From contig JAFGJO010000029.1 in NCBI GenBank assembly GCA_016929065.1, forward strand, positions 1-53,312: a DNA stretch of 53,312 nucleotides, in the 5' to 3' direction. How positions within the stretch are numbered: position 1 is the first letter of the stretch; each line of letters begins with the position of its first letter. This document shows positions 5,182 to 24,472 of the stretch, one piece after another. Source of the DNA: Spirochaetales bacterium (GTDB lineage Bacteria; Spirochaetota; Spirochaetia; SZUA-6; RPPD01). Position numbers and translations under genes: made by a program. The notes below the pieces were generated by a model, which was not told the origin of the DNA, did not search any database, and saw only the letters and a list, made by a program, of their open reading frames with translations.

Positions 5182-7134
5182 CTATGGTGTAACTGTTACC
5201 GTGTTTACGGTAAAAACAACCGTGTCAAAATATGCTGACATGGTGGTCGGTTCGTGCAATGTGTTTCCCGCCTGAAAGTCGATTTTAGCGGGCATGTCCG
5301 CGTATGCAAGACCAAGGGTGAGCAGCAGGCTTCCGTCGACTGTCACTGAATAGTAGCCGGTCACACGGTCATATTCGATAAATATTTCATGCCATGCATT
5401 CAAAGTAACCGTACCGGCAAGTGTCGCAACTCCCGTGTTGTCATTCACCATCCACACCTGACCTTCCTCGTTTATACATACGGTAAAGAGTGTGTCATTA
5501 TCCATTGTGCGCACTTTGATGAATCCGACATTCTGCATCCCGCTCAGGCCCATATATTGCACTTGCAGCTGCCCGTAGTTGTGTTCGCCGATAATTTTTC
5601 GGACCTGCACTGCCGTCGTTGTTGATGTCTCGCTTAATTGCAAACAATTACTGCCTGATGGAGCCGCCGGTGAGGCATTATTAATCACCTGGGCATTTAA
5701 TGTACTGTCCAACCTTGTGGCGACGAACCCCACAGGGAGCGAGCCGACTGCAACCGAATCAAAGTTTTCGGAAAAACCTGCCGGGGCCGGTGGAGCTGAT
5801 ACCGCAACGGTATTGATCGTTAAATTGACATCGTCTATGTAGAGTGCTGCATTCGATGCACTCGTGCCGCCGGCGACGAATTTTATTCTTTCAATGGCTT
5901 CGGTAGTTTCAGGAAGTGCAAATGTACCATAATACTGATCATTTACCAGAAAGTTAAAATATCCGCTGTTTTTATCCCAATTGATTTGCACCTTATACCA
6001 GGTATCAAATGCATAATTGAGCATCTCGATATTTCTGGAGTTAATATCCCGAATCTCAAAAGTACGGCGCTCCCTCACCCGTAATTCAACAAAATTTACA
6101 GATGAGCCCTTGAGATAAATCGTTGAATCAGATGCAGGTGTCGATGGAATTCTCAAATAAAAGGTAAGCTGTCCAAAATTCGAATCATGAATTCTGGTAT
6201 TCACAACCGATTTGACGGCCGGATCTGCACTTGCATCCTGAAGACACAAATAATTTGGCGATGAATATCCAGGAGCGCCTGCTGTTCCCTGTTTTACCTC
6301 TGCCGGGGTTAGTGAATCTCCCTCGGTCTCGCTGTAGGTCCAGCCAGCCGGAAGTTCGCCAACAGCCGTCGTGTCAAAGTTTTCGGGAAAAGCTGCATAA
6401 ACCGGGAGATCCCCGATTTGTTCTTCATTTGTCGTAAGATTCACATCATCTATGAACAGAGTTCCGCCGGTTGTAGTGGTTGTCCCGGCAATAATTTTGA
6501 TTCGTGAAATCAAAGGAGAAGAGGCAAGCATGGGAAAAATACCGCAATCAACACCATTGATAATGATTTGTGAATTCCCGGTTGCCTTGTCCCATTTTAT
6601 TTCACCGGTATTCCATTCATCATCATTAAAACTGGCGATTACGGTTTCTTCTCCGGTCAACCCCTCAATGGTGACGGTTGATTCATGCTTGACCCGCAGA
6701 TTTACATGAGTTGAATTGGCCCCCCTTATACTTATTACCCCATCCTGGTCCGAATAATCCGGTGTCTGGAATTTGAATGTTAATTGTCCATATCCAGAGT
6801 CATGAATATTCACATTCACTATCGCACGGGCAGCAAGGTCCACGCTTGCATCCTGTAAGTGCAAATAATTCGGGGATGAGGCTGCGGTCATTCCGCCGAT
6901 TTCCTGCATCACCGCTGCCGGCGACTGCACAGCGCCTTCCGACATGCTGTAGATCCAGCCGGCGGGAAGATCTGCAACCGCGGTGGTATCAAAGTTTTCC
7001 GGGAACACCGCGTACACTGTTTCCTCTGGAAGCGGCCCGAAATCACAGCTGCTGAAAAATGCAGTCGTAAGCAGAACAGCGGTCAACAGATATACAGCTG
7101 ATTTCATTCCGCATGATTGTCTTGAATGTTTCAT
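5182..7134 (-). CDS. Surface lipoprotein with three jelly-roll-like repeats
   Basis: 650 residues. An N-terminal signal ends in a lipobox (TTAFFSSC, Cys about residue 30), predicting an acylated envelope protein. The rest is three homologous blocks of about 200 residues (roughly 40-235, 245-435, 450-645). Each starts with an ENFDTTAVADLPAGW-like motif and contains HDSGYGQLTF-, IKIIAGT- and LFIDDVNL-like strands. The pattern resembles concanavalin/LamG-type carbohydrate-binding folds, although I recognise no named family. No catalytic residues are evident, so surface glycan binding is inference. AAAGGAG precedes the ATG by 6 bases, deciding the start. Two CAGGATGTAAA repeats lie about 80-110 bp upstream. 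Confidence 0.8.
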   Translation of the reverse strand: MKHSRQSCGMKSAVYLLTAVLLTTAFFSSCDFGPLPEETVYAVFPENFDTTAVADLPAGWIYSMSEGAVQSPAAVMQEIGGMTAASSPNYLHLQDASVDLAARAIVNVNIHDSGYGQLTFKFQTPDYSDQDGVISIRGANSTHVNLRVKHESTVTIEGLTGEETVIASFNDDEWNTGEIKWDKATGNSQIIINGVDCGIFPMLASSPLISRIKIIAGTTTTTGGTLFIDDVNLTTNEEQIGDLPVYAAFPENFDTTAVGELPAGWTYSETEGDSLTPAEVKQGTAGAPGYSSPNYLCLQDASADPAVKSVVNTRIHDSNFGQLTFYLRIPSTPASDSTIYLKGSSVNFVELRVRERRTFEIRDINSRNIEMLNYAFDTWYKVQINWDKNSGYFNFLVNDQYYGTFALPETTEAIERIKFVAGGTSASNAALYIDDVNLTINTVAVSAPPAPAGFSENFDSVAVGSLPVGFVATRLDSTLNAQVINNASPAAPSGSNCLQLSETSTTTAVQVRKIIGEHNYGQLQVQYMGLSGMQNVGFIKVRTMDNDTLFTVCINEEGQVWMVNDNTGVATLAGTVTLNAWHEIFIEYDRVTGYYSVTVDGSLLLTLGLAYADMPAKIDFQAGNTLHEPTTMSAYFDTVVFTVNTVTVTP

Positions 7135-7211
7135 TGTCTACTCCTTTTACCGGACACCCGGTCTTTCATTCGATTATACTTTTTTAGATGATCTTGACAA
7201 TAGAATACTTA

Positions 7212-7244
7212 CAGGATGTAAATTTTCTGTTTCCAGGATGTAAA
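7212..7244 (-). promoter_or_regulatory. Two direct repeats, candidate activator site
   Basis: CAGGATGTAAA occurs at 7212-7222 and again at 7234-7244, exactly 22 bp apart, so on the same helix face. The pair lies 78-110 bp upstream of the lipoprotein start. Direct repeats about two turns apart are typical of AraC-family sites. A related GGATGTAAGG occurs near 31380, upstream of the PL1/PL9 pectate lyase. The binding protein is unknown. Confidence 0.35.
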
Positions 7245-7559
7245 ATAGTTGTAAACAAATTGGAAATGCAATTCCATGTATTTCTGCACTGGTCTGAATC
7301 CTGATATTTCCGGTTCAGTCAAAGATCTCTATGCCCGGAATGTTCGTGCGTCGAACAAATGATATCGGCCATAAACAGTTCTGTGTGTTTTAGTTTCATC
7401 ATTTTTATCTACATGATGGTTTCTATTATTTTTTCCGTTGAGTATGATGGTTGTGAAAGGCAGTTCATTATGGGATTGAAAATTTAAATCGTACTATTTA
7501 CAATTTGATCAAAGAAAACAAGTTCAGCAGAGGGGTACCGGCATCTACGGTTTCATTAT

Positions 7560-7775
7560 TTACACTGATGGACAGCTGCCCACTGCTTCGGCAAAGTACA
7601 GCCTGAAAGAATAATTTTTCCCCATAAAACTGTCAGGATCATTTTGGTTTGAACAAGCAATCGGGGTTCCCCTGCTGTCCAGGAGATAGCAGACACTCGC
7701 ATTCTTAGAAAGACTGTTGTTATCCATAATTTATTTGAGATATTTCAGGAACGTTTCATTATTGTGCAGCATATT
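7560..7775 (-). pseudogene. Decayed Cache (DctB-like) sensor-domain fragment
   Basis: The 810 bp between genes at 7135-7944 has no intact gene, but the minus strand retains a recognisable sensor stretch. After NMLHNNETFLKYLK there is an in-frame TAA, then NASVCYLLDSRGTPIACSN and PDSFMGKNYSFRLYFAEA, ending at a TAA at 7560. The pattern (vYvlD..G..iAaSN...pdSF.GknysFRpYF..A) is the ligand-binding signature of double-Cache sensors such as DctB histidine kinases. The downstream half and any kinase are missing, and further in-frame stops and shifts surround it. I see it as a dead gene remnant. The rest of 7245-7560 and 7776-7944 shows nothing I can name. Confidence 0.6.
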
Positions 7776-7944
7776 GCAGGCAGGAAATCAATCAATTCTG
7801 CGACATTTTGAACATTGTTCCTTGTTTCAGCTGACAGCCCAAACCAACGCACCATACTCTTTCATCACCTTTTTTAACGGCATTTTCATTACATCCGGTT
7901 GTAAAAAAAACCGGTATTATGATATTGTAGTAAAAAGGAAATAT

Positions 7945-8721
7945 ATGAATCGATATTGGGAAGTAGACGCATTCAGAGGACTTGCTATAGTCAGCATGAT
8001 CATATTTCATGTGTTCTATCTTGTTGTTTTCTTTGCAATCGCAAAGATCGATTTGTGGACCGGCTTTTTCTGGTGGTTTCCAAGAATCATCGCGGGGACA
8101 TTTATTTTTACCGTGGGGCTGTCGCTCACCCTCAGCCACGCACGCGTGAAAGCAGACCATAAAAATACATTTAATAAGTATCTGCTTCGGGGACTCTCGA
8201 TATTCGGTTTCGGCATGATCATCACGATAGTTACCTTTATTGCTTTCCTGATATTGGAGAATATCACCGGAGAGGAACAGCTGTCCCAGGTCGTTTATTT
8301 TGGAATTCTTCATTGCATCGGCATCTCGATTATCATCGGGTCGTTTTTTCTAAGGTTCAGGATTATCAATATCATCATCGGAGTTGCCGTATTGATTGCG
8401 GGAAACCTCCTGAACTCGCTGCGCTTCGATTTTCCATGGCTGTTATGGCTGGGATTCTGGCCGCAAGGCTATTACCCTGTTGATTATGAGCCGCTGTTGC
8501 CGTGGATAGCGTTGTTTTTTTTCGGGCTGGCATTCGGAAATATCGTCTATAAAAACGGCACCCGGCCTTCAATAATTCCGGAATTGGGCAGTGGAATATT
8601 GACGCTGCCGTTCAGGGGCCTGGGTTTTATGGGGAGACATTCGCTTCTCATCTACCTCGTCCACATCCCCGCGCTCGCGGGGATCATCTACGGAATCAAA
8701 TCGCTGATTGAGCTGTTTTAA
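7945..8721 (+). CDS. DUF1624 / heparan-alpha-glucosaminide N-acetyltransferase-like membrane protein
   Basis: 258 residues, multi-pass. It opens with RYWEVDAFRGLAIVSMIIFH, the N-terminal hallmark of the DUF1624/HGSNAT catalytic family (R..DafRGlai..Mi..H), in which a membrane His is thought to relay an acetyl group to a sugar. About seven hydrophobic segments follow, ending with GRHSLLIYLVHIP, also conserved. The frame is open upstream to 7717, but AAAAAGGAA just before ATG 7945 and the family's N-terminus fix this start. The substrate is unknown; modification of an envelope glycan is inference. The gene stands alone, with the Cache-sensor relic upstream on the other strand. Confidence 0.8.
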   Translation: MNRYWEVDAFRGLAIVSMIIFHVFYLVVFFAIAKIDLWTGFFWWFPRIIAGTFIFTVGLSLTLSHARVKADHKNTFNKYLLRGLSIFGFGMIITIVTFIAFLILENITGEEQLSQVVYFGILHCIGISIIIGSFFLRFRIINIIIGVAVLIAGNLLNSLRFDFPWLLWLGFWPQGYYPVDYEPLLPWIALFFFGLAFGNIVYKNGTRPSIIPELGSGILTLPFRGLGFMGRHSLLIYLVHIPALAGIIYGIKSLIELF

Positions 8722-8756
8722 CAGTACCGATATTATGTATTTTACTGCCGAATACA

Positions 8757-9404
8757 TCAAAACCAGAGACTGATTTTAACTGTACCGCCATACAAATCCA
8801 GATCAGTAAAATGTGCATACTCAAATCCGGCCGAGAAAACAAAATGGTCCAGAATATACCCGATTGCAGGCGTCGCCACTACATGAAAAACATTGCCGTC
8901 CGTACTGCAATTTGCGTCCAGGGACAGCATGATATTTTCTGTGATAAATATTCTCGCCTGGGTGCCAAAAGATAATCCCAAACCGTAATTGATTGTTTCA
9001 CCACTCATGCCGCCATAAAAAGCCAACAGGAGATTCCCTGCAGGTATGGCAATCCCCAGATTGACTGTATAAAAAGAATGCCCTACGCCATTTGTATCAA
9101 ACATTTGATGAAGGTATAATTTACTAAATATAAAGAATCCGACAAACGAAGCATCCAATGTGAATCCATATCTAAAGCCATCTGTGCTAAAAAGTAATGG
9201 AGCGCTGACTACAAGTTCAAAAGACAAAGGCTTCCCGGTCCCCGGCGCGTAGGGAAAATTAAATCCGTCCCGTGGTGCTCCATACTCAACCAAATCTATA
9301 GCCGGGGTTCTGTCACTCGAATTGTCTGAAGAGTCATTCGAGCCGGAGGAATCTGAATTATTTGATTCGCTTTCCCAATCCGATTCAGCCAACGCCTGGC
9401 ACAT
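8757..9404 (-). CDS. Beta-rich outer-membrane-like protein, possibly with a broken 5' end
   Basis: 215 residues from the first ATG. A Ser/Asp/Asn-rich linker (SESNNSDSSGSNDSSDNSSD) is followed by about 160 residues of alternating hydrophobic and glycine-rich strands ending in TVKISLWF; a terminal aromatic is typical of outer-membrane barrels. No family is recognised. The ATG has no spaced ribosome site. In the same frame upstream, GTG 9548 (after AGGAG) opens 32 charged residues (KKEQEEQKELSEKKKKN) that end at a TAA at 9450-9452; the frame then continues GLGNCIGAILQGM into this ORF. The gene may therefore carry a nonsense mutation, or the two pieces may be separate. No clear signal peptide is in frame. 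Confidence 0.55.
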   Translation of the reverse strand: MCQALAESDWESESNNSDSSGSNDSSDNSSDRTPAIDLVEYGAPRDGFNFPYAPGTGKPLSFELVVSAPLLFSTDGFRYGFTLDASFVGFFIFSKLYLHQMFDTNGVGHSFYTVNLGIAIPAGNLLLAFYGGMSGETINYGLGLSFGTQARIFITENIMLSLDANCSTDGNVFHVVATPAIGYILDHFVFSAGFEYAHFTDLDLYGGTVKISLWF

Positions 9405-9725
9405 CCCCTGCAGGATGGCTCCGATACAGTTCCCAAGTCCGCTCCCGTCTTATGATGTATTTTTTTTCTTTTTTTCGCTGAGTTCTTTTTGTTCCTCCTG
9501 TTCTTTTTTTGTTCGTTCGCGGTACAATATTTTTCCCTTTACTTTCACGTTCTGAATACTCCTTCAGATTCAAATCCTGAAACAAATATACACAGAAAAA
9601 AAAGGGAATTGTGGCTTCGATCCATTTTATCATTTTTATCAAAGCACAACTTGTCATGAACCAGTCCAGTTGATACATTTAAAATAACAATTCCATGAGT
9701 TCGTACAAGGGATAGGGGGACATAC

Positions 9726-10727
9726 ATGAAAATTCAGAATGATGATAAATTTATTAAACTGGTGGAGAACCTGATTGACCCCGCCGAGGTCTGTGATTTG
9801 TATTTCTTTCAAAGGTTCAAGAACCTTCTGCCAACATGGCTGTTTAAAAAACTATTGATAAAAACATCAAAAAAATCCCCCTATATGGGTTTTGTCATTG
9901 AACCCTATAGCCTCTTCCTGTTTTTCAGGCTCAGGAATTTCGAAAAAGCAAAAGCCCTTCTGCCAACACGATATGAACTTGTCAAAACCCGTATTTTTGC
10001 TGATGAGGAGCCTGATTATTATCATGGCATGGGTATTTTCAATACCAAAGCAAGTACCTTTTGGGGTACCAGGATGGAATCCTACCTTGTTGCAAAAGAC
10101 ACAAAAACAGGCCTGATTTCGTGGATTTTCATTGACATCATCAGCAATACGATAATTGCCCTGCCGACAGAAGGAGTGGTCAGTCGAAACAGCAAACACG
10201 CTGTTCATACCACGAATTCAAAGGGCGATTTTTTTGTGGACATCAAGGAAGACCGGACAGGCCGTCATTTGGTTTGTAAGGGGAACATGACCAGGGGTAT
10301 CAAACGGAAACTTGATCAGCCGTTGTGGGTTTTGGGTAACACCTCGATAGCGCACAGCACCGAGTTGACGGACAAAAGCGAAGATCCCTTTGCGGTCATT
10401 TTTGACCCGGCAGAGGTGGCAACGGCCATTGACATTCCGCTGGCAGACGTGAAACTGCACAAGAACTCATTGTTCACCGATCTGGCAGAGCAGGAACTGT
10501 GCAAGGTACTGTGCTTTCCCTTTGCCCAGCACTACATCGCGGACAGCCCTGGCTGCCGCACCTATATCAAAAATGACCAGGACATGATTGAAAACTATAA
10601 TCGGATTTCAGAATTAAAGGATTTGAAGACTTTTTCCACAAAAAGCATCAAAAGGATGTTTTTTTCAAGCATCATTTTATCATATCTGATTATTGCAGTT
10701 TTATCAGTTCTGCTGCTATTAAAATAA
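9726..10727 (+). CDS. Tail-anchored unknown protein, tandem paralogue A
   Basis: 333 residues, homologous over its full length to the next gene. Shared landmarks in order: PYMGFVIEPYSLFL (about 52-66), a KAKALLPTRYEL block, an arginine/glutamate segment GTRMESYLVAKDTKTGLISW, LWVLGNTSIAH, FAVIFDPAEV, FPFAQHY, and one C-terminal membrane helix (about 310-331). The soluble part vaguely resembles acetoacetate-decarboxylase or DUF2071-like folds, but I see no catalytic lysine and do not assign it. A soluble head with a single terminal helix suggests a tail-anchored cytoplasmic protein. GGGGGA lies 5 bases before the ATG. The spacing of 17 bases to paralogue B suggests co-transcription. Confidence 0.75.
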   Translation: MKIQNDDKFIKLVENLIDPAEVCDLYFFQRFKNLLPTWLFKKLLIKTSKKSPYMGFVIEPYSLFLFFRLRNFEKAKALLPTRYELVKTRIFADEEPDYYHGMGIFNTKASTFWGTRMESYLVAKDTKTGLISWIFIDIISNTIIALPTEGVVSRNSKHAVHTTNSKGDFFVDIKEDRTGRHLVCKGNMTRGIKRKLDQPLWVLGNTSIAHSTELTDKSEDPFAVIFDPAEVATAIDIPLADVKLHKNSLFTDLAEQELCKVLCFPFAQHYIADSPGCRTYIKNDQDMIENYNRISELKDLKTFSTKSIKRMFFSSIILSYLIIAVLSVLLLLK

Positions 10728-10744
10728 GGGAAGGGATTGATTAT

Positions 10745-11758
10745 ATGACAAAAGAAGAAAACCGGGCATTCGTAAAAAAATCTGAATCCCTGATAAAACC
10801 GCGGGATATTACAGCCATAAGTTTTTTGGGGGATTTCAACAAATACCTTCCAAAGAAAGTCCAGCACAAGATCATGCAAAAAGGATCGAGCATGATACCG
10901 TATATGGGTTTTGTTGTTGATCCCTATTGTTTTTTTGTTTCGTATAAAATTACAGACAGAGCTGCTGCCCAGGCGATGCTTCCTGATGGATATGAACTGA
11001 CAGAAACCTCTGTTTTTAACAAAAAGGAAAAACACCCGCTTGTTATTATCAGTGCCTTTACTGCCCGGACCTCCGCATTTACCGGCATGCGTCTTGAGTG
11101 TTATATCATCGCCCGCAATATAAAGACGGGCCTGTTGTCCTGGATTATCGCAGATTATGAAACCAATACAAACAGCCATGATCCCAGGAATGGATTCTGC
11201 GGTTATACCAGTGACCCGGCTGTGTTTGCGACGACGCCGTATGGAGAGCTGCTCGTTGATGTGAAGGGATCGGTCAGCAAGCGAGAATTCTCCGCCAAGG
11301 TGGATTTGAATGCGGGGAAGACAGAGAAACTGGAAGAATCGCTTTGGGTCGAAGGAAATATGTCAGTGGATTATGGCGGAGAACTAAAGCATGAATCATC
11401 TGTTCCCTTCAGCCTGATTTTTGATCCGGTACTCATGAAGGAGGCCCTGAGGATACCATTGAAGAGCATTGATATTGAGAAAAACTCCTTTATGGATACC
11501 ATCATTAATTCAGAGCAGCCGGTGGACGCAGCGGTATTTCCCTACAGCCAGCACTTCATTATCCGGCAGGATCTTCGCGAAGAATCTATCACCAGTGAAA
11601 AAGATCTGTTTTATCAGATCAAAACCTTTCTGGATCGATCAGGATTCAAGACGATGTCCGGAGATGATATAAAAAAGCCCCTGTTTAGAGGAATGATTAT
11701 CAGCACACTGGTGAATATTGCAATCATTCTATTTCTGCTGATACAGTGGCTTTTCTGA
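10745..11758 (+). CDS. Tail-anchored unknown protein, tandem paralogue B
   Basis: 337 residues and a clear tandem duplicate of paralogue A. It repeats PYMGFVVDPYCFFV, AQAMLPDGYELTET, GMRLECYIIARNIKTGLLSW with following TNSHDPRNGF, LWVEGNMSVDYG, FSLIFDPVLM, FPYSQHF and a final hydrophobic helix. The G-x-R-x-E-x-Y-x-x-A-x-x-x-K-T-G-L-x-S-W core is the best-conserved block, so it may form the active or ligand site. No function is recognised. The last 30 bases overlap the 3' end of the convergent FAD oxidoreductase gene, so the two transcripts must overlap. A ribosome site (GAAGGGA) lies about 9 bases upstream. Confidence 0.75.
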   Translation: MTKEENRAFVKKSESLIKPRDITAISFLGDFNKYLPKKVQHKIMQKGSSMIPYMGFVVDPYCFFVSYKITDRAAAQAMLPDGYELTETSVFNKKEKHPLVIISAFTARTSAFTGMRLECYIIARNIKTGLLSWIIADYETNTNSHDPRNGFCGYTSDPAVFATTPYGELLVDVKGSVSKREFSAKVDLNAGKTEKLEESLWVEGNMSVDYGGELKHESSVPFSLIFDPVLMKEALRIPLKSIDIEKNSFMDTIINSEQPVDAAVFPYSQHFIIRQDLREESITSEKDLFYQIKTFLDRSGFKTMSGDDIKKPLFRGMIISTLVNIAIILFLLIQWLF

Positions 11759-13354
11759 TTTTGAGAGGCTTTTTATCATGGCGGCGGCAGCGATGCGGCC
11801 CGTCAGAATGGCGATGGGAACACCAGACGGGCTGTAGCTCCACTGTCCGGCTTTATAGATGCGGGGAATGGCTGTATTTGGCGTAGACAAGATACCTGCC
11901 AGGCTGTCAGGAACAGGAGCCTTTTGTTCCAGGCTCCATCCGGTTATGGCTCCATTTGCCGTATGAAACATCTTCATTACAGTGATCGGCGTCGCTGATT
12001 CCTGGAATATAATTTTCTCTTTCAAGCCAGGATAAATAGAGGACTCCAGCGTATGCAGCATATAGGCAGTGATTTTTTCCCTGAACTCGTCAATCCAGCC
12101 TGCTTGTTCGACCTTTAAAAAGAGTTCACCGTCAAAGAGCAGACTAATTACCAGTCCGGTTTTATTCTTTGGAGCCAGAGACGGGTCTTTTACAACAGGA
12201 ATGGATATTTCGTAGGAATTTCTTTCACAATACTCCCTGAGCCACGCAAAGAGTTCCTGTTTGGTAATGTGCCCAAAATCTCTCTTCAGCGTTGCCAGCC
12301 TTGATCGATGCAAATCCCCCATCCCTGTAGCAAGGGGAGTGTAAATAAAATGACCATTTGATATTTTTTTAAAAACCTCGGGTGTTTCGTTTACCGCAAC
12401 AAACAGGGTAAACACAGACTCCGCCGTATGTGCGGTCAGGTATTTCCGGCGCTCCAGTGAAATTGAACGCCGGAATCCGGGAGCCAGGGATTGGTCATCC
12501 AGCCGCTGATAGAGAGATTTTAAATCTGCCGCCCACAGCAGTTGATCGTAGATGTATTCTTTCCCGTTCTGGTCCAGCAATGTATTCTCGCCTGGATTTA
12601 TTTTTACGATTTCACTGTTTCTTATGATTTCTCCGCCATCATGAATTATCTTTGATTCCAATGCCTGCGGGAGCTTTCCGGTTCCTCCTGGAGGATATTT
12701 ATAATCCTGATAGTTTTCAAAATAGCCGAAAGCAAAATTGGCCGGAGTCCCCTTGAAGAAATGCTGACATACCATATCTTTTAACGCGGTGTTGTCTGTA
12801 ACAGAGTCCAGAACCTCTTCTATGGATTTTTTATGAATAATGTTTTTTACGACCACCCGTAAAAAAAAGGGAAGCCAGGGGAGAAAGTTTTTCCAGAGGT
12901 ATCGATGGTCTTTTACTGCATTCTTGAAAAAAGGATTCGCTACCTTGTTGAGAATATGCGCATCACGGGAGTGTGATCGGATTCGCTTTTCTATTTTTTT
13001 AATCGCACACCGGGATTCAGGAAAAAGTTTATGCAATGATGCTATATAGTCTGAAATCCCCCGGTTTGAATCAAAGTGGACAATTTCCTTCTTGATCCCT
13101 GTAGAAACCAGACCTTTGATCAGGGGAAGATTGATCCCCAAATCCTCCAGCATGGGAACAAGAATCCCCGCGTTGCCGAACGCCCGCGGTCCGGCATCAA
13201 AAAGAAAACCATCTCTGGAAAAAGAGCTGACCAGGCCCCCGCATTGTGAAGTTTTCTCAAGAATGAGCACGCTATGGCCGCTTTGCAGGAGATAGGCTCC
13301 GGCTGTCAATCCCGAGATACCTGCCCCGACAATGACAATTTTTTGGGGCTTCAT
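11729..13354 (-). CDS. CrtI/RetSat-like FAD-dependent oxidoreductase
   Basis: About 541 residues. The N-terminus carries the Rossmann FAD motif KIVIVGAGISGLTAGAYLL with a downstream acidic residue (LILEKTSQCGG) and DAGPRAF. The C-terminus has the second FAD contact YKAGQWSYSPSGVPIAILTG, as in phytoene desaturase, carotenoid isomerase and retinol saturase families. Such enzymes desaturate, saturate or isomerise isoprenoid or other hydrophobic substrates at the membrane. No phytoene synthase is nearby, so a carotenoid role is not supported. ATG 13354 overlaps the SDR stop as ATGA; an in-frame ATG at 13366 is the alternative. It is the last gene of the NTF2-SDR-FAD operon. Confidence 0.85.
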   Translation of the reverse strand: MKPQKIVIVGAGISGLTAGAYLLQSGHSVLILEKTSQCGGLVSSFSRDGFLFDAGPRAFGNAGILVPMLEDLGINLPLIKGLVSTGIKKEIVHFDSNRGISDYIASLHKLFPESRCAIKKIEKRIRSHSRDAHILNKVANPFFKNAVKDHRYLWKNFLPWLPFFLRVVVKNIIHKKSIEEVLDSVTDNTALKDMVCQHFFKGTPANFAFGYFENYQDYKYPPGGTGKLPQALESKIIHDGGEIIRNSEIVKINPGENTLLDQNGKEYIYDQLLWAADLKSLYQRLDDQSLAPGFRRSISLERRKYLTAHTAESVFTLFVAVNETPEVFKKISNGHFIYTPLATGMGDLHRSRLATLKRDFGHITKQELFAWLREYCERNSYEISIPVVKDPSLAPKNKTGLVISLLFDGELFLKVEQAGWIDEFREKITAYMLHTLESSIYPGLKEKIIFQESATPITVMKMFHTANGAITGWSLEQKAPVPDSLAGILSTPNTAIPRIYKAGQWSYSPSGVPIAILTGRIAAAAMIKSLSKSEKPLYQQK

Positions 13355-14295
13355 AACAGGCGGCATAATTCCAGACTCTTTTCCCAGACCATATCCACCC
13401 TGCTATTGTCTCTTCCATGAGGAGCAGGCCGTTCTGGTGTCGTCAGGTTAAAAAACCGGCCCGAGACATATTTGACTTCATCAGCAGCCGATAAATAATA
13501 TAAAGCCTGCGCCGAGATGAGGGGATCTTTTGCTGTGGATAAAATCAGTTTTCTCTTTATCATACGATAGAGCTTGCCGTTGTTCTCGCCGATATTGGAC
13601 TTTACATTTCCCGGATGCATGGCATTGATGGTTATCCGGGAATTTGAGAAATAATCCCTGAATTTGATCATGGTCAGGAGCTGGGCTGTTTTTGCCGCCC
13701 CATAGCTTTTCAAGCCCGAATACCGATGCCATCTCCAGTCCAGATCATTCAGATGGACTCCCGCCAGGGCAAAACGGTGGCCTTCGGAATTGACATAAAT
13801 TATACGAGCCCGGTTTTCATCCAATAATTTTTCTCGTAACAGATAATTCAGACAGAACGGAGCCAGATGATTGACGTGAAAAACCATTTCAATGCCGTCT
13901 TCAGAGTATGCTCTTTTTGTATGGTATACACCTGAATTATGAATAAGAATATCAATGGGAGTTTTCATGTTCAGTAATTCATGGACACACTTTTTGGTCT
14001 GTGTCAGGGAACTAAAATCCGCCTGGATAGTCCGAATTGTGCAGCCATACAGGCCAACAAGCTCTTTTTCGAGTTTTTCTGATTTTTGAAGATTCCGGTT
14101 TAAACAAACAAGATCCGCTCCCTTCGAAGCAAACAGCCGTGCTGTTTCCAGGCCAATTCCCGAAGTGGTTCCCGAGATCACCGCGGTCTTTCCCTTCAAA
14201 TCATTGTCGCAACCCAGAGGGAGCTTTTTTTCATTTCTGATCAGCTCTCCCATATCGCGAAAACGGTATTGAATAAGGTATCGAAAAAGCCCCAT
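13351..14295 (-). CDS. Short-chain dehydrogenase/reductase
   Basis: 314 residues. Classical SDR features: the cofactor motif SGTTSGIGLETA (about 40-51), NSG near 115, catalytic Ser in YVNSEGHR, and catalytic YGAAK. About 30 extra N-terminal residues (LFRYLIQYRFRDMGELIR) form an amphipathic, possibly membrane-associating helix. The layout resembles retinol dehydrogenase/WW-oxidoreductase-like SDRs acting on lipophilic alcohols or ketones with NAD(P)(H). Its ATG overlaps the stop of the NTF2-like gene by one base (TGATG), and its own stop overlaps the FAD gene start, so the three are translationally coupled. GAGG lies 8 bases before the ATG. Confidence 0.9.
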   Translation of the reverse strand: MGLFRYLIQYRFRDMGELIRNEKKLPLGCDNDLKGKTAVISGTTSGIGLETARLFASKGADLVCLNRNLQKSEKLEKELVGLYGCTIRTIQADFSSLTQTKKCVHELLNMKTPIDILIHNSGVYHTKRAYSEDGIEMVFHVNHLAPFCLNYLLREKLLDENRARIIYVNSEGHRFALAGVHLNDLDWRWHRYSGLKSYGAAKTAQLLTMIKFRDYFSNSRITINAMHPGNVKSNIGENNGKLYRMIKRKLILSTAKDPLISAQALYYLSAADEVKYVSGRFFNLTTPERPAPHGRDNSRVDMVWEKSLELCRLL

Positions 14296-14807
14296 CAGCC
14301 GAACCTCTTTTTCATGAACCTGCGGTATCCTTTTGCCAGAAAACCGATATTGTCAAATATATCACCCCATAAATCATAATAATCCCGTTGCTCAATCACC
14401 TTGCCCTCTTTTAAAAGAATCCTGCTGGCACCGTATATGGAAGATTGGGGATACTTTTTATAGGAGATAACCATCTCCCACTCTGCAAAGATCAGGTTTT
14501 CCTGTAGCATACTGTTATGGATTATAAATTTAAGCCCCCTTGACCGTTTTGCCAGGCGCCGGGTCATTTCTGTGAAGCTCTGAATTCCCCTGATTTCCTG
14601 AACAGAATCCTTGAAAAAAATATCCTTGTCATAATACAGGAGCATATGATCCCAACAGGGCCTGCCCTCTTGTGTATAGATGTCTTGCCACAGGGAAAGG
14701 AAATGATCCAGATCCTTTATTTTATAGTTATCCATGGAGTAATCATAATCTACATTGTTTATATCTACAAGAACGTATTTGGCGTAACAATTTCCCGGTA
14801 CAGCCAA
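14295..14807 (-). CDS. NTF2/SnoaL-like small protein
   Basis: About 170 residues from a TTG start (AGGA four bases upstream), or 146 from ATG 14735, which lacks a ribosome site; the choice is open. The body fits the NTF2/SnoaL cone fold: an N-terminal helix (DLDHFLSLWQDIY), a YYDKDIFFKDSVQEIRG strand-turn, FTEMTRRLA, then long antiparallel strands (LIFAEWEMVISY; SRILLKEGKVIEQRDYYD). Fold members bind hydrophobic ligands and include cyclases, isomerases and non-catalytic binders. First gene of the NTF2-SDR-FAD operon, so it may bind or isomerise the same substrate; that role is inference. Confidence 0.7.
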   Translation of the reverse strand: MAVPGNCYAKYVLVDINNVDYDYSMDNYKIKDLDHFLSLWQDIYTQEGRPCWDHMLLYYDKDIFFKDSVQEIRGIQSFTEMTRRLAKRSRGLKFIIHNSMLQENLIFAEWEMVISYKKYPQSSIYGASRILLKEGKVIEQRDYYDLWGDIFDNIGFLAKGYRRFMKKRFG

Positions 14808-14940
14808 TGTATCCTGAACCCTGTCAGGCGGGTCATTTTTTTTAAAAATTCAGGATTTACAATGGAGAGCCTGCTTTTATAGTGCTATAGTGTTTTGTGA
14901 AAAGGAAAAAAAAATGCGGCAACCAGAACAGCACACGCCT

Positions 14941-15165
14941 CTTTTCCTCTTTTCATACTTTCCTTATAAATTCCTCTTCCTGATTTCCTTATAAATTCCT
15001 CTTTTCCTCTTCCTGATTTCCTTATAAATTCCTCCCCAGCTATCAAGTTATGAATGTCCTCCTTTCCTGAATTCCTTGTTAACTCCTTTTCCTGCTTTCA
15101 TGCTTTCCTTATAAATTCCTCTTCCTGAATTCCATCTTTCATGCTTTCCTTATAAATTCCTTTTC
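14941..15165. repeat. Dispersed pyrimidine-rich intergenic repeats
   Basis: The 515 bp between the NTF2 operon and mrfA contains at least five copies of TTCCTTATAAATTCCTCTTC or close variants (near 14960, 14985, 15020, 15106, 15148), interleaved with CTTCCTGATTTCC and CTGCTTTCATGCTTTCC. They are degenerate relatives of the array at 1-315, and spacing is irregular. There is no open frame. The promoter of mrfA must lie downstream, within 15230-15322, but no strong -35/-10 pair is seen. Confidence 0.75.
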
Positions 15166-15202
15166 ATCTGTGTCTGCTATGTGTGGTATTTTTTTCAGAC
15201 AG

Positions 15203-15230
15203 ATTGCCCGGTCAAGCCGGGCAATGACGG
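15203..15230. repeat. GC-rich palindromic element
   Basis: TTGCCCGG, five bases, CCGGGCAA, followed by TGACGG: a perfect 8-bp inverted repeat in an otherwise AT/pyrimidine-rich spacer. The GATTGCCCGGTCAAG form looks like a REP/MITE-type mobile palindrome. A long T run precedes rather than follows the stem on the + strand; on the minus strand the same bases read as A, so terminator function is doubtful. Confidence 0.45.
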
Positions 15231-15322
15231 TTATTCTCCAAGACACGTGCGGAGCCTCTCTTTTCCTGCTTTCATAATGGGGACTATGACAAACTCAACA
15301 TATTCTGATACTATACGCCTGT

Positions 15323-17608
15323 ATGGATAATGACATTAATGCATTGATATCCCAACTTGAACAGGACAAGGCGTTTCTCTCCTGTGTACACAAATGGGAA
15401 AAGATTCCCGCACGCGAAGCAGTGTATTCTCCCCTCCCCCTGGAGCTTCACGAGAACCTGTTTCGCTCTTTGGCGGAAAAAGGCATCTACCAGCTGTACT
15501 CACACCAGCAGGAATGCTACGAGCATGTCCGCCGCGGAAAAAATATTGTGGTGGTCACCCCCACTGCCAGCGGCAAAACACTCTGTTACAATCTACCGGT
15601 GCTCCAGTCCCTGATCGAGGATCCCGATGCCAAGGCCCTGTATCTTTTTCCCACCAAGGCCCTTTCCCAGGACCAGCAGGCAGAGCTCAATGAAGTGGTC
15701 ATGGAAGGAACACTGTCGGTTAAAATCTATACCTATGACGGCGATACACCCAGCTCTATCCGTGTGGCAGCACGGGACGCCGGACGTATCGTTATTTCCA
15801 ACCCGGATATGCTTCACGCAGGCATATTGCCGAACCACCCCAAATGGATCAGGTTTCTGAAAAACCTCAAGTACATTGTCATCGATGAGATCCACACCTA
15901 CCGCGGTGTTTTTGGATCGCACATGACAAATCTCATCAGGCGGTTAAAACGGATCGTCCGCTTCTATGGTGCCGAGCCCCAGTTTATCTGCTGTTCGGCA
16001 ACAATCGGGAACCCGAAGGAACTTGCTGAACGTGTTATCGAGGAACCGATTACCCTCATCGACAATAATGGGGCGCCCTCCGGTGAAAAACATCTGATAT
16101 TCTACAATCCGCCGCTGGTCGACCCGGTTCAGGGAATCCGCCGCGGAGTTGTCAATGAATCACAGCGCCTTGCGGTGCGATTTTTAAAAAACAAAATAAA
16201 GACCATCGTCTTTTCGCGTTCCCGTGTCCGTACCGAACTCATAGCCTCGTATATCAATTCGTCGCTTGCAAACTTTTATAATGACAACAACCGCACACGG
16301 GTAGAATCCTACCGGGGCGGGTATCTCCCGAACGAACGAAGGGCCATTGAAAAGGGCCTTCGTGACGGGAGCATCCAGGGGGTCGTCTCGACGAATGCGC
16401 TTGAACTCGGTATTGATATCGGCGGGCTGGATGCTGCAATCCTCGCAGGATTTCCGGGGTCGATCTCCTCCTGCTGGCAGCAGGCCGGCCGCGCGGGAAG
16501 GCGCCAGACCGTCTCGATTGCCCTCATTATCGCCTCTGCTTCTCCTTTAAACCAGTATGTGATCCAGCATCCGGAATATTTCCTGGGCAAATCCCCTGAA
16601 TCCGGATGGGTCGATCCAAACAACCTGTACATCGAGCTTGACCATTTGAAGTGTGCGGTATTTGAGCTGCCCTTTAAAAACAGCGAACGGTTCAGCGACC
16701 AGACCGCCTCGCTGCTCGCATACCTGGAAGAGAACGGCGTGATCCGGCTTACCGGCGATTCCTATTACTGGTCCGAGCGCGGCTACCCTGCCGAACACAT
16801 CTCCCTGCGGAGCGCCACCAGTGAAAACGTGGTGATCATCGATACGACAAAAGGAAGAAATGCAGTTATCGGAGAGATGGACCGCCCTTCGGCAAAGGAA
16901 CTCATTTTTGAAGATGCCATCTATTTACACCGCGGAAATCAGTATACCGTTAAAAAACTCGATATCGACAACAAGCGCTGCGAGGTTGAAGAATCGGCTG
17001 TCAACTACTATACCGATTCAATCGTTAAAACAGATATAAAGGTGCTGCACCAGGACAGTAAAAAGGAAATCAGCGGGGCCGAACTCATCCTCGGCGATAT
17101 CCTTGTCCGCACCCAGGTGGCAAAATACAAGAAACTCAAATTCCATACCCATGAAAATATCGGATACGGCGAAATTTTTCTTCCCCCCGAGGAAATGCAC
17201 ACCCGCGCGGCTGTGCTTGTTTTTCGGCCGGGAACAAAAGCAGGCCGGGCATTCGAAGCGCTCGAAGAAACACAGAAAACCCCGGTCATCGCGCGGATGG
17301 GTTTTCTCATTAAAAATGTCGCCCCGGTATTTCTGCTCTGCGACCCCTCCGACATCGGGGTCTCCGAAAAACTCAAAGACCCCCATTTCCAGGCACCGGC
17401 GCTTTATATCTATGACAACCACCCGGGGGGCACCGGACTGTCCGAAGGGTTCGCCGAAAACGTGGCCACAATCATCAATGCACTCGAAGAACGGATTCGC
17501 CTGTGCCCCTGCCGCTGCGGATGTCCTTCATGCATCGGCCCGGTCGTTGATATAAGCGAAACAGACAGTAAAAAATCCCTGCGCGATTTTTTAAAAGACG
17601 TTCTGTAA
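15323..17608 (+). CDS. mrfA: MrfA/YprA-family DEAD-box helicase (DUF1998)
   Basis: 761 residues, the family length. Superfamily 2 helicase motifs: Walker A TPTASGKT (79-86), Ia FPTKALSQDQ, DEIH box (188-191), motif III CSATIGNP, and motif VI QQAGRAGRR. The C-terminal DUF1998-type region carries a metal-binding cluster CPCRCGCPSC near residue 730. In Bacillus subtilis MrfA (YprA) is a 3'-5' helicase acting with the MrfB nuclease in a UvrABC-independent repair route for mitomycin C adducts. The partner gene follows 9 bases downstream, so the pair is conserved here. No good ribosome site precedes ATG 15323, so the true start is the least certain part. Confidence 0.92.
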   Translation: MDNDINALISQLEQDKAFLSCVHKWEKIPAREAVYSPLPLELHENLFRSLAEKGIYQLYSHQQECYEHVRRGKNIVVVTPTASGKTLCYNLPVLQSLIEDPDAKALYLFPTKALSQDQQAELNEVVMEGTLSVKIYTYDGDTPSSIRVAARDAGRIVISNPDMLHAGILPNHPKWIRFLKNLKYIVIDEIHTYRGVFGSHMTNLIRRLKRIVRFYGAEPQFICCSATIGNPKELAERVIEEPITLIDNNGAPSGEKHLIFYNPPLVDPVQGIRRGVVNESQRLAVRFLKNKIKTIVFSRSRVRTELIASYINSSLANFYNDNNRTRVESYRGGYLPNERRAIEKGLRDGSIQGVVSTNALELGIDIGGLDAAILAGFPGSISSCWQQAGRAGRRQTVSIALIIASASPLNQYVIQHPEYFLGKSPESGWVDPNNLYIELDHLKCAVFELPFKNSERFSDQTASLLAYLEENGVIRLTGDSYYWSERGYPAEHISLRSATSENVVIIDTTKGRNAVIGEMDRPSAKELIFEDAIYLHRGNQYTVKKLDIDNKRCEVEESAVNYYTDSIVKTDIKVLHQDSKKEISGAELILGDILVRTQVAKYKKLKFHTHENIGYGEIFLPPEEMHTRAAVLVFRPGTKAGRAFEALEETQKTPVIARMGFLIKNVAPVFLLCDPSDIGVSEKLKDPHFQAPALYIYDNHPGGTGLSEGFAENVATIINALEERIRLCPCRCGCPSCIGPVVDISETDSKKSLRDFLKDVL

Positions 17609-17617
17609 GGAGCCCGT

Positions 17618-18799
17618 GTGTCTGCCGAATCTGATTTCAAGCGAAAACTCGACTCCCTGCACAAATACATTCGTAACACAAAACCAGAATTCAGCTCTGA
17701 AGAAAAAACAATAAAAAACACAAAAGGAATTCAGGCGGGAACAGAACTTCCGGGATTCACACGGATAGGCGAATACACGTATCTCCGGGAAAATGCCGAA
17801 CAAAGCCCCTGGAAAGACAAGCCAGCGGATATTGTTCTTGCGACGACCAAAACCCCGCCTTCCTCGCTGGTGTTTTTTGATACAGAGACAACAGGGCTTT
17901 CCGGCGGTGCGGGAACGTTGATCTTCCTGATTGGCCTTGCGCATATAACAGACAGCCAGTTGTGTATTGACCAGTATTTTCTCTCAGACTTTCCGGGTGA
18001 GGCGGAATTCCTTAATATAATAGAAAATAAACTTCCCGAAGACGCAGTGTATGTATCATATAATGGAAAAGCATTCGACTCTCACCTGTTGTTTGGCCGG
18101 TTCCTCATTCATGGAAAAGAAAAATTCCTGAAAAATCAGTATGACCTTTTGTTTCCCTGCAGGCGTTTGTGGAAAGACACTATAGGATCATGTACCTTAA
18201 AGAACATTGAAGCACGGGTGCTTGGCATCCCAAGGGAGAATGACATTGACGGGTTTGAGGTTCCCGAACGGTATTTCCAGTTCCTGCGCACGGGGAACTC
18301 CGGGCTTTTGGAACCGGTTTTTCATCACAATTATCTGGATGTATGGTCACTCGCCAAAATACACTTTCTTATTGAATCAATCATCGCCAGTCCCAATACA
18401 GCCCGCAGCACAGCGCATACATCGCTTGCGAAAATGCTTTTTTCACACAACCAGTCAAAAGCAGAGCAGGTGCTCTATGCCGGGCATGAAAAAGGCGACA
18501 GAAAAAGCAGTATGATGCTCGGCTTTCACCTGAAACGCATGAAAAAGCACGACGAGGCATTTGCAATCTGGAAAACCCTGTTTGAAACATCCAGTACTAT
18601 CCAGGCCGGCATTGAAATGGCAAAACTTTTGGAACACAGGGAACGGAATTATTCAGAAGCAAAGCAAATCATTGGCCGGATGCTGGAGTCGGTGTTTCCT
18701 GTAGATTCACTGCTTCGTGCTGAACTCTTATACCGTTATGAACGGCTTGAACGGAAATTGAGCATCAAAGGTTATCGTAAAGAATGCGAAGAGAGGTAG
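17618..18799 (+). CDS. mrfB: MrfB/YprB-family DEDD exonuclease
   Basis: 393 residues, GTG start 5 bases after AAGGAG. The RNase H-like exonuclease core carries its acidic residues: D88 and E90 in FFDTETTGLSGG, the Asp of YNGKAFDSHL, and HHNYLDVWSL. A C-terminal stretch (about 265-390) is helical and TPR-like. In B. subtilis MrfB is the nuclease partner of MrfA in mitomycin-lesion repair; the tail may mediate partner contacts. The tight spacing implies one transcript and a shared role. No obvious SOS operator was found upstream of the pair. Repeats begin shortly after the stop. Confidence 0.9.
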   Translation: MSAESDFKRKLDSLHKYIRNTKPEFSSEEKTIKNTKGIQAGTELPGFTRIGEYTYLRENAEQSPWKDKPADIVLATTKTPPSSLVFFDTETTGLSGGAGTLIFLIGLAHITDSQLCIDQYFLSDFPGEAEFLNIIENKLPEDAVYVSYNGKAFDSHLLFGRFLIHGKEKFLKNQYDLLFPCRRLWKDTIGSCTLKNIEARVLGIPRENDIDGFEVPERYFQFLRTGNSGLLEPVFHHNYLDVWSLAKIHFLIESIIASPNTARSTAHTSLAKMLFSHNQSKAEQVLYAGHEKGDRKSSMMLGFHLKRMKKHDEAFAIWKTLFETSSTIQAGIEMAKLLEHRERNYSEAKQIIGRMLESVFPVDSLLRAELLYRYERLERKLSIKGYRKECEER

Positions 18800-18870
18800 T
18801 GAAATATTTTTTTCATTTTCTCGATTTCCTTTTATTACTTTTTTCCATTCTTTTTACAGATTATTATTCA

Positions 18871-19070
18871 TGCATTCCTGTTTTCCTGAATTTCCTTGTT
18901 TCCTCATGATTTTCTTCAGCTTCGCGGATTCTGCGTACTCTGCGTGAAATTTCTTCTCTTCTTCATACTTTTCTGTTTTCCTGAATTCCTTGTTTCCTTA
19001 TGATTTTTCTCCCCCTTCGCGTACTCTGTGTACTCTGCGTGAAATTTCTTCTCTTCTTCATGCTTTCTTT
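18871..19070. repeat. Two-copy ~100-bp intergenic direct repeat
   Basis: Two near-identical copies lie head to tail, about 18875-18970 and 18971-19069. Each runs CTGTTTTCCTGAATTCC, CTTGTTTCCT, ATGATTTTTCT, TTCGCG, a doublet of CTCTGCGTG-like words (GTACTCTGCGTGAAATTTC), and CTTCTCTTCTTCAT. The TTCCTGA words tie it to the other pyrimidine repeats. The CTGCGTACTCTGCGTG core resembles short dispersed repeats seen in environmental bacteria. The second copy ends two bases before the tauE stop codon. No coding potential. Confidence 0.85.
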
Positions 19071-19071
19071 G

Positions 19072-19917
19072 CTAAAAATATATTTTGTACAGAGTAAACA
19101 GCCCCAACACAACGGTCGCCACACCGATAATCGCCCGCAATCCAACAGTCTTCATCTTTTTTACCGTCAAAACTGAAATGGGAACAGAAATAACAGCCCC
19201 AATGAAAAGATACGGGAAAAGCACCCAGTCTATTGCCACTGGATGAATAAGATAAACGAGCACACCGACAATACAGGTAAATCCCTCGGCAAGAGAGGTA
19301 ATTCCGATCGCGGATTTATCCTTGACACCGGAAAGAAGCTGTCCTCCGGTGACCACCGGGCCGTACCCCCCGCCGCTCATGCCCTTGTTAAATGATGCAA
19401 TCATACTGAGTGATACTATTTTTTTCCAGGAAAACCTGAAATTCATTTTTAATGTAACCAGAACAACAATCCCTATGAGGAACACAAGAATGCCGATATA
19501 TGTTTTCAGAACAATTGAGGGAAGATTCACCGCCAGAAAAACAGAGGCCACTGTACCGAGCACACTGAACACAGCGATCACGACAACCACTTTAAGGTCA
19601 CGGGACATGTTGTGCCTGAAATGATCAATGAGTCCGGTCTTTTTTTTCTTTTCCTGGTTTATATCATGATCGCTGTTGTTAACAGAAAAATCCACATTAC
19701 CTGCCTTATGATGCAGAAAACCTGCGAGCAATCCGGAAACGAGTTCAGACAGGAGTATTGCTGGAACAATTTGAAGCGGATCAAACCCCATAATCATCAA
19801 AATCGGTGTGAGCATTGTTCCATAGCCCATTCCCAGTGTTGAATCGATGTACTCGGCAAACAAGGCCAGTCCGATAATAAGCAGTCCGAATTCCAAAGGC
19901 AATGTGAATATCTGCAT
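19072..19917 (-). CDS. TauE/SafE-family sulfite/sulfonate exporter
   Basis: 281 residues with 8-9 hydrophobic helices. The two-fold TauE/SafE signature is visible: the first half has AEYIDSTLGMGYGTMLTPIL and the second KGMSGGGYGPVVTGG; both are Gly-rich re-entrant motifs. A hydrophilic charged loop (DINQEKKKKTGLIDHF) separates the halves. The family moves sulfite, sulfoacetate or related organosulfur anions across the inner membrane. GGAGG lies 5 bases before the ATG. An Rrf2 regulator gene is immediately upstream on the same strand, which suggests sulfur- or redox-dependent control; the cargo is inferred from the family only. Confidence 0.88.
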   Translation of the reverse strand: MQIFTLPLEFGLLIIGLALFAEYIDSTLGMGYGTMLTPILMIMGFDPLQIVPAILLSELVSGLLAGFLHHKAGNVDFSVNNSDHDINQEKKKKTGLIDHFRHNMSRDLKVVVVIAVFSVLGTVASVFLAVNLPSIVLKTYIGILVFLIGIVVLVTLKMNFRFSWKKIVSLSMIASFNKGMSGGGYGPVVTGGQLLSGVKDKSAIGITSLAEGFTCIVGVLVYLIHPVAIDWVLFPYLFIGAVISVPISVLTVKKMKTVGLRAIIGVATVVLGLFTLYKIYF

Positions 19918-19943
19918 ATTTTCCTCCGTTTTTTATCTATTTT

Positions 19944-19970
19944 GTCTATAGACTTAATCGTCTTTAGTCT
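19944..19970 (-). promoter_or_regulatory. Candidate Rrf2 operator upstream of the exporter
   Basis: The 63-bp gap between the Rrf2 gene and the exporter has the perfect 10-bp palindrome GTCTATAGAC at 19944-19953, with a degenerate GTCTTTAGTC following at 19960-19969. The word TATAGACT also sits in the Rrf2 gene's own upstream region, at 20408-20415 within 20399-20416. Shared sites near both starts support autoregulation plus exporter control. Confidence 0.45.
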
Positions 19971-19980
19971 GCAAAAAAAA

Positions 19981-20382
19981 TCATATCAACATATCAATAG
20001 TTGTCTTTTCCATCTTTTCTGAAAGGTAATCCCGTATTTCCCTGAACACATGCAGGAGTTTCTCATTTTTTTCGATTGGTGTGTTTTTATAAAAATATTG
20101 GCTCACCGATCCCACCGAGGCAAGCGCTCCGTCGAGCAGCCGCACCACCTGCGCAAGGGAAATCTGTGACGGTTTTTTGGCCAAACGGTACCCGCCGTCA
20201 AGCCCCCGCCTGCTCTCCACGTACCCTGCATGTTTCAGCGACAAAAGAATTTGCTCCAGAAACTTTTTTGGTATCGACTTTCGTTTGCAGATATCGATGA
20301 TCCGCACAAACCCATCCTGTTCATGTTCACATAAATCTATCAGAGCCAACAGGGCATATTCACTCTTCACCGACAATTTCAT
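19981..20382 (-). CDS. Rrf2-family transcriptional regulator
   Basis: 133 residues. The N-terminal winged helix matches Rrf2 (KLSVKSEYALLALIDL; IPKKFLEQILLSLKHAGYV; SRRGLDGGYRLAKKP) and the dimer helix includes ISLAQVVRLLDG. Fe-S members such as IscR and NsrR have three Cys near residues 90-106; none are here, the region reading SVGSVSQYFYKN. It is therefore probably a CymR-like, cluster-free member, which in Bacillus senses cysteine metabolism through a partner. That would fit the sulfur-anion exporter downstream. The 5' flank at 20399-20416 contains TAGAC/TATAGACTATA words. Confidence 0.88.
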   Translation of the reverse strand: MKLSVKSEYALLALIDLCEHEQDGFVRIIDICKRKSIPKKFLEQILLSLKHAGYVESRRGLDGGYRLAKKPSQISLAQVVRLLDGALASVGSVSQYFYKNTPIEKNEKLLHVFREIRDYLSEKMEKTTIDMLI

Positions 20383-20398
20383 TTCTCTACCAACATAA

Positions 20399-20416
20399 TA
20401 GACAATATAGACTATA
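20399..20416 (-). promoter_or_regulatory. Candidate autoregulatory Rrf2 site
   Basis: Just upstream of the Rrf2 start, TAGAC recurs as TAGACAATATAGACTATA (20399-20416). TATAGACTATA is nearly symmetric and shares TATAGACT with the operator-like sequence ahead of the exporter. Confidence 0.4.
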
Positions 20417-20496
20417 AAGTTATATTCGTCAATTTATTTTTACAATTCATGGTCAATCAATTATACTTTAAAACAGACCAAAAAAGGAGGACCTTG

Positions 20497-21585: not shown

Positions 21586-21651
21586 CAATGTCAGCTGCTG
21601 TTTATTGACAGGATACACGTCCTTCATTCATACTATAATAAAGAGAATACT

Positions 21652-21690
21652 ATGAATTTGCCATTCAATTCCGGCAAGAGTAACAGATGA
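21652..21690 (+). CDS. 12-codon leader ORF overlapping the regulator start
   Basis: ATG 21652 opens MNLPFNSGKSNR and stops with TGA at 21688-21690, overlapping the ATG of the large regulator as ATGA. A weak AAAGAG precedes it. The regulator has no ribosome site of its own beyond AAGAG in this leader, so coupled re-initiation is plausible. Conservation is untested. Confidence 0.3.
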   Translation: MNLPFNSGKSNR

Positions 21691-23897: not shown

Positions 23898-23930
23898 GAA
23901 TTTCGTATCGCGAAAACAGAACATTAATTT

Positions 23931-24344: not shown

Positions 24345-24472
24345 GATATAGTCTCCCCCGCACAGAGTATACCATAGATGGTAAAGAAATATCATTATAG
24401 CAGTAAAAAAATATCAAAATTATTGTTGCAGTTGATTTTTTTGAATACCATATTACCAGGAGGATCGTGTTG

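Follow-up and report, generated by a model that had tools for sequence, protein, structure and literature searches.

The window analysed here comprises positions 1 to 53,312 of contig JAFGJO010000029.1, which is contig 51 of a 3.49 Mb Spirochaetales genome (assembly GCA_016929065.1; 95.8% complete). It contains five closely packed genes which very probably form a conserved functional unit. Two tandem genes encode paralogous tail-anchored (TA) proteins, TA1 and TA2, and converge on an operon for an NTF2/SnoaL-like protein (NTF2), a short-chain dehydrogenase/reductase (SDR) and a CrtI/amine-oxidase-fold flavoprotein (FAD). In our view, there is about an even chance that the five genes constitute a pathway module which acts at the membrane surface and redox-tailors a long hydrophobic substrate, either an acyl or an isoprenoid lipid. 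The five reading frames listed in Table 1 agree with the original prediction in their coordinates, their convergent arrangement and their tight coupling. The NTF2 stop codon and the SDR start codon share the sequence TGATG, FAD and SDR overlap by 16 nucleotides (nt), TA1 and TA2 are separated by 17 nt, and the convergent 3′ ends of TA2 and FAD have 30 nt in common. A strong ribosome-binding site, GGATAGGGGG, precedes the ATG of TA1. The NTF2 reading frame was first listed at 14295–14807 on the minus strand, with a TTG start at 14807; the protein probably starts instead at the ATG at position 14735 and has 146 residues, as this is where its homologues begin, and the additional 24 residues show no conservation.

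The recurrence of the paralogues with the operon in other genomes had been set as a test beforehand, and such recurrence was found. The TA alignment was used to scan named genomes; of the 126 encoding stretches obtained, the best 80 loci were kept, and 84 non-redundant TA loci were examined overall. TA, SDR and NTF2-like genes lie together in approximately 28 of these 84 loci, mostly with FAD, and the exact layout of the window (TA-TA / FAD-SDR-NTF2) is found in 11. A layout with a single TA gene (TA / FAD-SDR-NTF2) is found in seven Bacteroidales loci. Elsewhere the genes are rearranged but remain clustered, for example as NTF2-SDR-FAD-TA-TA on one strand (L061 and L066) or as NTF2-TA-TA / FAD-SDR (L039 and L070). 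The shared cluster is carried by Spirochaetota, Lokiarchaeota, Bacteroidales (with one TA gene) and one deltaproteobacterial metagenome-assembled genome (MAG). When the neighbouring reading frames were clustered, SDR, FAD and NTF2 were by far the most recurrent partners of TA; the next specific partner was a lipoprotein. A search of plasmid DNA with the whole region gave no match.

The association is also seen among 297 genomes of the same class, in which TA is present in 18, NTF2 in 34 and FAD (at E below 1e-40) in 32. Both TA and NTF2 are found in 12 of these genomes (Fisher p 8e-9), both TA and FAD in ten (1e-6) and both NTF2 and FAD in 27 (6e-27), the p values being uncorrected for relatedness. 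TA and the triad genes co-occur unlinked, on separate contigs or far apart, in four genomes (G025, G032, G151 and G280). Likewise, the bacillotal isolate Trichococcus collinsii DSM 14526 has a stand-alone TA gene (L095) and an unlinked complete NTF2-SDR-FAD operon (L204, 7261–10304). This last case is weak support for co-function, as among some 35 stand-alone-TA genomes searched only that of T. collinsii yielded an NTF2 gene; for the same reason, we rejected the idea that stand-alone-TA genomes are hidden carriers of the triad. It is highly improbable that the TA pair and the operon are mere neighbours with unrelated roles. Each half does occur alone, NTF2-SDR(-FAD) without TA in many spirochaetes and TA without NTF2 in Bacillota, Patescibacteria, Actinomycetota and Bathyarchaeota, but the linkage is repeated in different orders and in different phyla, the unlinked co-occurrence within the class points the same way, and the rearranged yet clustered loci largely refute this explanation. 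We note that two spirochaete MAGs have TA2 divided between two reading frames (L031, 6807–7821; L034, 8796–9814 and 10897–11169). L034 additionally has a disrupted NTF2 gene and lacks a neighbouring FAD gene, which may reflect decay of its cluster.

TA1 and TA2 share 33% sequence identity over their full length (E 8e-64) and neither has a match in Pfam or NCBIfam. Pfam searches with 25 TA members returned chance-level matches only, and a profile search of the Protein Data Bank (PDB) sequences found no TA relative even at E 10. Structure prediction of the paralogues had been proposed as a check; run on TA1 using 25 homologues, AlphaFold2 gave a confident model (mean pLDDT 90.1, pTM 0.87) with a recognisable double-β-barrel fold of the acetoacetate decarboxylase (ADC) type, which had not been visible to the earlier reader. 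ADC is the sole significant PDB match of this model in Foldseek, and in VIA-align the top 12 matches are all ADC-family structures, with Z scores of 14.7–16.6 over approximately 200 aligned residues, compared with 6.1 for the next row. The best match is PDB entry 3c8w (Z 16.6, r.m.s. difference 4.4, 206 residues aligned). The link between TA and ADC is drawn from structure, as hhalign comparison of TA with a few ADC sequences was insignificant.

The G-R-E-Y-A-TG-SW core described in the original prediction is real. In 106 homologues Gly114, Arg116, Glu118 and Trp201 are invariant, Glu14, Asn205, Gln268 and His269 are 99% conserved, and Tyr120 and Ala123 are conserved at 97 and 98%, respectively. 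A fold and a set of conserved residues can now be assigned to a protein family that is absent from Pfam and NCBIfam. The run of ADC-family structures at the top of the VIA-align comparison would also suit TA1 and TA2 as true acetoacetate decarboxylases or aldolase-dehydratases acting on a small β-keto acid, but we give almost no credence to this, because no lysine column exceeds 61% in the 106 homologues, none of the 25 members matches PF06314 at E up to 1 and the hhalign comparison offers no support. The best lysine column, as read from the alignment, is at residue 50, just ahead of the first barrel strand. To judge from this alignment, Schiff-base catalysis of the ADC kind is not available to the TA family as a whole. 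The terminal membrane helix that had been predicted is present, both TA1 and TA2 ending in a hydrophobic helix, and hydropathy indicates a C-terminal hydrophobic segment in 91 of the 106 homologues; it is absent in 15, in at least two of these because the contig ends early. In two spirochaetes a regulator with helix-turn-helix and cobalamin-binding-like parts, recognized by eye, is encoded just upstream of a helix-less TA (L043, 1502–2389; L044, 7264–8160).

The FAD model (pLDDT 89.7) has the CrtI-type fold, its best PDB match being the γ-carotenoid desaturase 4rep (Z 29.6, 451 residues aligned; next match Z 24.8), and Gly14, Gly16 and Gly19 of its GxGxxG motif are invariant in 34 relatives. 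The best NCBIfam model is TIGR02734 (crtI_fam), at 80.5 bits against a cut-off of 238.1. SDR is a member of its superfamily, with YxxxK in 48 of 50 relatives and a TGxxxGxG-type motif in 38 of 50; its best NCBIfam model, NF004846 (E 1e-42), scores 146 against a cut-off of 268. NTF2 scores 29.4 bits with PF12680 (SnoaL_2), just over the gathering score of 27, and carries the motif QRDYYDLWGDI, in which each position of QRDYYD-WGD is at least 98% conserved in 49 aligned homologues.

A hydrophobic substrate is suggested by the best structural match of FAD, by the membrane helices of the TA proteins, by lipid-enzyme genes that neighbour the cluster in some genomes and by the occurrence of NTF2 relatives in furan-fatty-acid-type operons. 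In the module that we propose, the CrtI-type flavoprotein would add or remove a C=C bond in the chain, SDR would use NAD(P)H to convert a carbonyl of this molecule to an alcohol or the reverse, and the NTF2/SnoaL-like protein, with its near-invariant motif, would isomerize or dehydrate an intermediate. The two tail-anchored ADC-like barrels, which lack the Schiff-base lysine, would hold the lipid or a reactive intermediate at the membrane, and Arg116, Glu118 and His269 perhaps act on the polar end of the lipid. We infer one substrate common to all five proteins, its lipid nature and the chemistry of each step. The lipid-modifying pathway of the original prediction stands as plausible from the CrtI-type fold, the membrane anchors and the lipid-enzyme neighbours; its substrate is inferred, and a classical carotenoid route is disfavoured. 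Some points weigh against a lipid redox role. The membrane helix is missing from several proteins in the TA2-like branch; the kinship of SDR and FAD with the proteins of the gammaproteobacterial operons discussed below does not go beyond the superfamily level; and the acyltransferase, the ligase and the lipocalin were each seen as neighbours in no more than two loci. In addition, the NTF2 gene is absent from about 34 genomes that have stand-alone TA homologues, and the wider TA family must therefore have another or a broader role.

The accessory neighbours lean towards lipids, although any one of them was found at a small number of loci. A PlsC-type acyltransferase adjoins a related operon in L170 and an AMP-binding ligase adjoins one in L183. 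A DUF2269 membrane protein adjoins the operon in L187, with a similar-looking protein in L032, and a 145-residue membrane protein adjoins it in L162, L167 and L171, with similar-looking proteins in L032 and in the Lokiarchaeal L052; a membrane protein of L170 is homologous (32% identity) to one near TA in Enterococcus. A lipocalin gene (PF08212, E 1e-47) lies beside TA in the Bacteroidales contig L077 (8363–8926), and a similar-looking protein is encoded beside TA in the Bathyarchaeota contig L121 (10255–10713). The lipoprotein lies beside the operon in eight Bacteroidales loci and in the spirochaetes L037, L166 and L168, and only seven of the 12 lipoprotein-bearing genomes of the class also have NTF2 or TA; it was rejected as a constant sixth part, being absent from the window genome.

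Two other uses of such a hydrophobic substrate have to be weighed against the module proposed above. A carotenoid or apocarotenoid pathway, with FAD as a carotenoid desaturase or isomerase, would be in keeping with 4rep and TIGR02734 as the best structural and family matches and with the presence of carotenoid-type genes in the window genome. We nevertheless consider it quite improbable, as the phytoene synthase of this genome and two other CrtI-like desaturases lie in a separate cluster on contig 19, an SQS/PSY gene is absent in 14 of 24 FAD-bearing genomes, and the TIGR02734 score is far below its cut-off. A general role of FAD as phytoene desaturase was rejected on the first two of these grounds. 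In the contig 19 cluster (L197, taken from 8000–26000 of that contig), the phytoene-synthase match lies between the two CrtI-like proteins at about 7005–13196, and the neighbours appear by eye to be a prenyltransferase, an acyltransferase and a glycosyltransferase. The module might instead degrade or detoxify an environmental hydrophobic xenobiotic, terpenoid or steroid rather than build a cell lipid. The patchy distribution of the cluster, its exchange between phyla and domains, and the frequency of these SDR and FAD types in catabolism would fit such a role, but genes for transporters or CoA-dependent catabolism are not among the specific recurrent neighbours of the cluster and the membrane anchoring of the TA pair better suits a membrane-resident substrate; we regard degradation as unlikely.

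The cluster extends to the archaea. It is found whole in the Lokiarchaeota loci L051, L052, L055, L058 and L061, and Lokiarchaeal TA1 is 65–69% identical to that of the window. The neighbouring genes look archaeal when their translations are read by eye, with SRP54-like and Nob1-like proteins in L051 and a CDC48-like protein and a small ARF-like GTPase in L060. The latter locus is from the 3.3 Mb chromosome record CP070831, in which TA genes are present and no NTF2 gene was found. In the TA tree, TA1 and TA2 form separate, deeply split clades, in each of which the Lokiarchaeota form one well supported clade close to the spirochaetes. A single Lokiarchaeota clade is also seen in the SDR tree, at lower support in the NTF2 tree, and in the FAD tree for the triad-type copies. 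Since such clades occur in the trees of both paralogues and of the operon genes, it would appear from the sequences that either both TA paralogues crossed between the domains together with the operon or all were shared very early. A transfer from spirochaetes to Lokiarchaeota is one possible direction, but the nested position of the Lokiarchaeota is not significant (AU p 0.44 when the non-Lokiarchaeal TA1 sequences are forced into one clade). Some Lokiarchaeota have a second FAD protein of 791–798 residues beside TA (L053, 3239–5635; L082, 2456–4831), whose branch in the FAD tree is very long and which is apparently another family. Distant stand-alone TA homologues with no adjoining triad are found in Bacillota, Coriobacteriia, Microbacteriaceae, Patescibacteria, Bathyarchaeota and Thorarchaeota, so that the TA family extends beyond this pathway.

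The same layout in spirochaetes, Lokiarchaeota and Bacteroidales indicates a function that is useful across the domain boundary. Should membrane lipids be its target, the cluster would be relevant to how Asgard archaea and bacteria come to have lipid chemistry in common, and at least one cultured isolate with both parts, T. collinsii DSM 14526, makes the question testable. It is possible, although doubtful, that the pathway makes or remodels an uncommon membrane lipid and has been exchanged as a unit between bacteria and Lokiarchaeota, with the lysine-less ADC-like tail-anchored proteins representing a new kind of lipid-handling or lipid-transforming protein. A literature search, with most subscription journals outside its reach, found no description of the cluster, and the module seems to be undescribed. 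Elsewhere in the window, 7717–8721 encodes a protein with a strong match to the heparan-α-glucosaminide N-acetyltransferase catalytic domain (PF07786, E 6e-60), and 5182–7134 encodes a 650-residue protein with a match to a sialidase-like carbohydrate-binding domain (PF22585, E 1e-6).

Table 1. Features of the five-gene cluster, in window coordinates.
Feature	Position	Strand	Description
TA1	9726..10727	+	333 aa; ADC-like barrel and C-terminal membrane helix; new family without Pfam or NCBIfam match
TA1 C-terminal hydrophobic helix (residues 306–332)	10641..10721	+	Model secondary structure; hydropathy
TA2	10745..11758	+	337 aa; ancient paralogue of TA1, in a clade separate from that of TA1
TA2 C-terminal hydrophobic segment (about residues 314–337)	11684..11755	+	Sequence and alignment
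FAD	11729..13366	-	545 aa; CrtI/amine-oxidase-fold flavoprotein; PF01593, E 5e-21
SDR	13351..14295	-	314 aa; PRK06197/retinol-dehydrogenase/POR-like short-chain dehydrogenase/reductase with YxxxK; PF00106, E 1e-27
NTF2/SnoaL-like protein	14295..14735	-	146 aa; PF12680, E 1e-6; reading frame extendable to 14807

The known systems closest in gene order are the gammaproteobacterial furan-fatty-acid-type operons. When all plasmids were searched in translation with the NTF2 protein, 13 matches were obtained, and all eight annotated matches that were inspected belong to gammaproteobacterial operons that run phrB-NTF2-SDR-FAD and, wherever the inspected stretch is long enough, continue with DUF1365 and/or a CFA-type methyltransferase. 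The window and plasmid NTF2 proteins align in BLASTP at E 2e-14, with the RDYxDL motif matched and 23–29% identity. The counterpart of FAD in Rhodobacter, where the related pathway comprises UfaM, UfaD and UfaO, is UfaD; this enzyme desaturates the acyl chains of phospholipids in vitro and is dependent on O2 in vivo (PMC7380195). The shared NTF2-SDR-FAD order and the homology of NTF2, together with the uniform setting of the inspected plasmid matches, could suggest an anaerobic variant of this ChrR-regulated ufa pathway. We consider such a variant very unlikely given the oxygen requirement in Rhodobacter, the different subfamilies of SDR and FAD, and the gene content: the window genome, at its stated completeness, has no PF07103 match for DUF1365/UfaO, and there is no CFA-type methyltransferase (UfaM) in the cluster. 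The genome does have PF02353 matches, all of them weak (best 30.7 bits). The resemblance to gammaproteobacterial SnoaL-SDR-FAD operons remarked on in the original prediction holds for gene order and for a remotely homologous NTF2, but not for SDR, FAD or UfaO.

The comparison with these and other known systems can be drawn as follows. Unlike the furan-fatty-acid operons, the window cluster shows no DUF1365, methyltransferase, photolyase or ChrR gene (the genome as a whole was covered without a dedicated ChrR search) and has the ADC-like TA pair in addition. By analogy, it reads as sharing an organizational principle with those operons, namely NTF2, SDR and an amine-oxidase-fold lipid desaturase in order, rather than as belonging to them. 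FAD has the fold and FAD-binding motif of the CrtI-type desaturases (4rep, 4dgk and TIGR02734), but differs from them in falling far under the curated cut-off, in being unlinked to phytoene synthase and in often occurring in genomes without phytoene synthase. SDR shares its best model, NF004846, and its PDB relatives, 3rd5 and protochlorophyllide reductase (POR), with the PRK06197/retinol-dehydrogenase/POR-like enzymes, but scores below the cut-off of that model. Finally, the TA1 model aligns with members of the ADC-like superfamily (ADC, MppR and Swit_4259; PDB entries 3c8w, 3bgt, 4zbt and 5upb) over the extent and with the Z scores given above, but shares only 6–14% sequence identity with them, is unmatched by PF06314, has no conserved lysine, and extends the common barrel by three helices at the N terminus and a membrane anchor at the C terminus.

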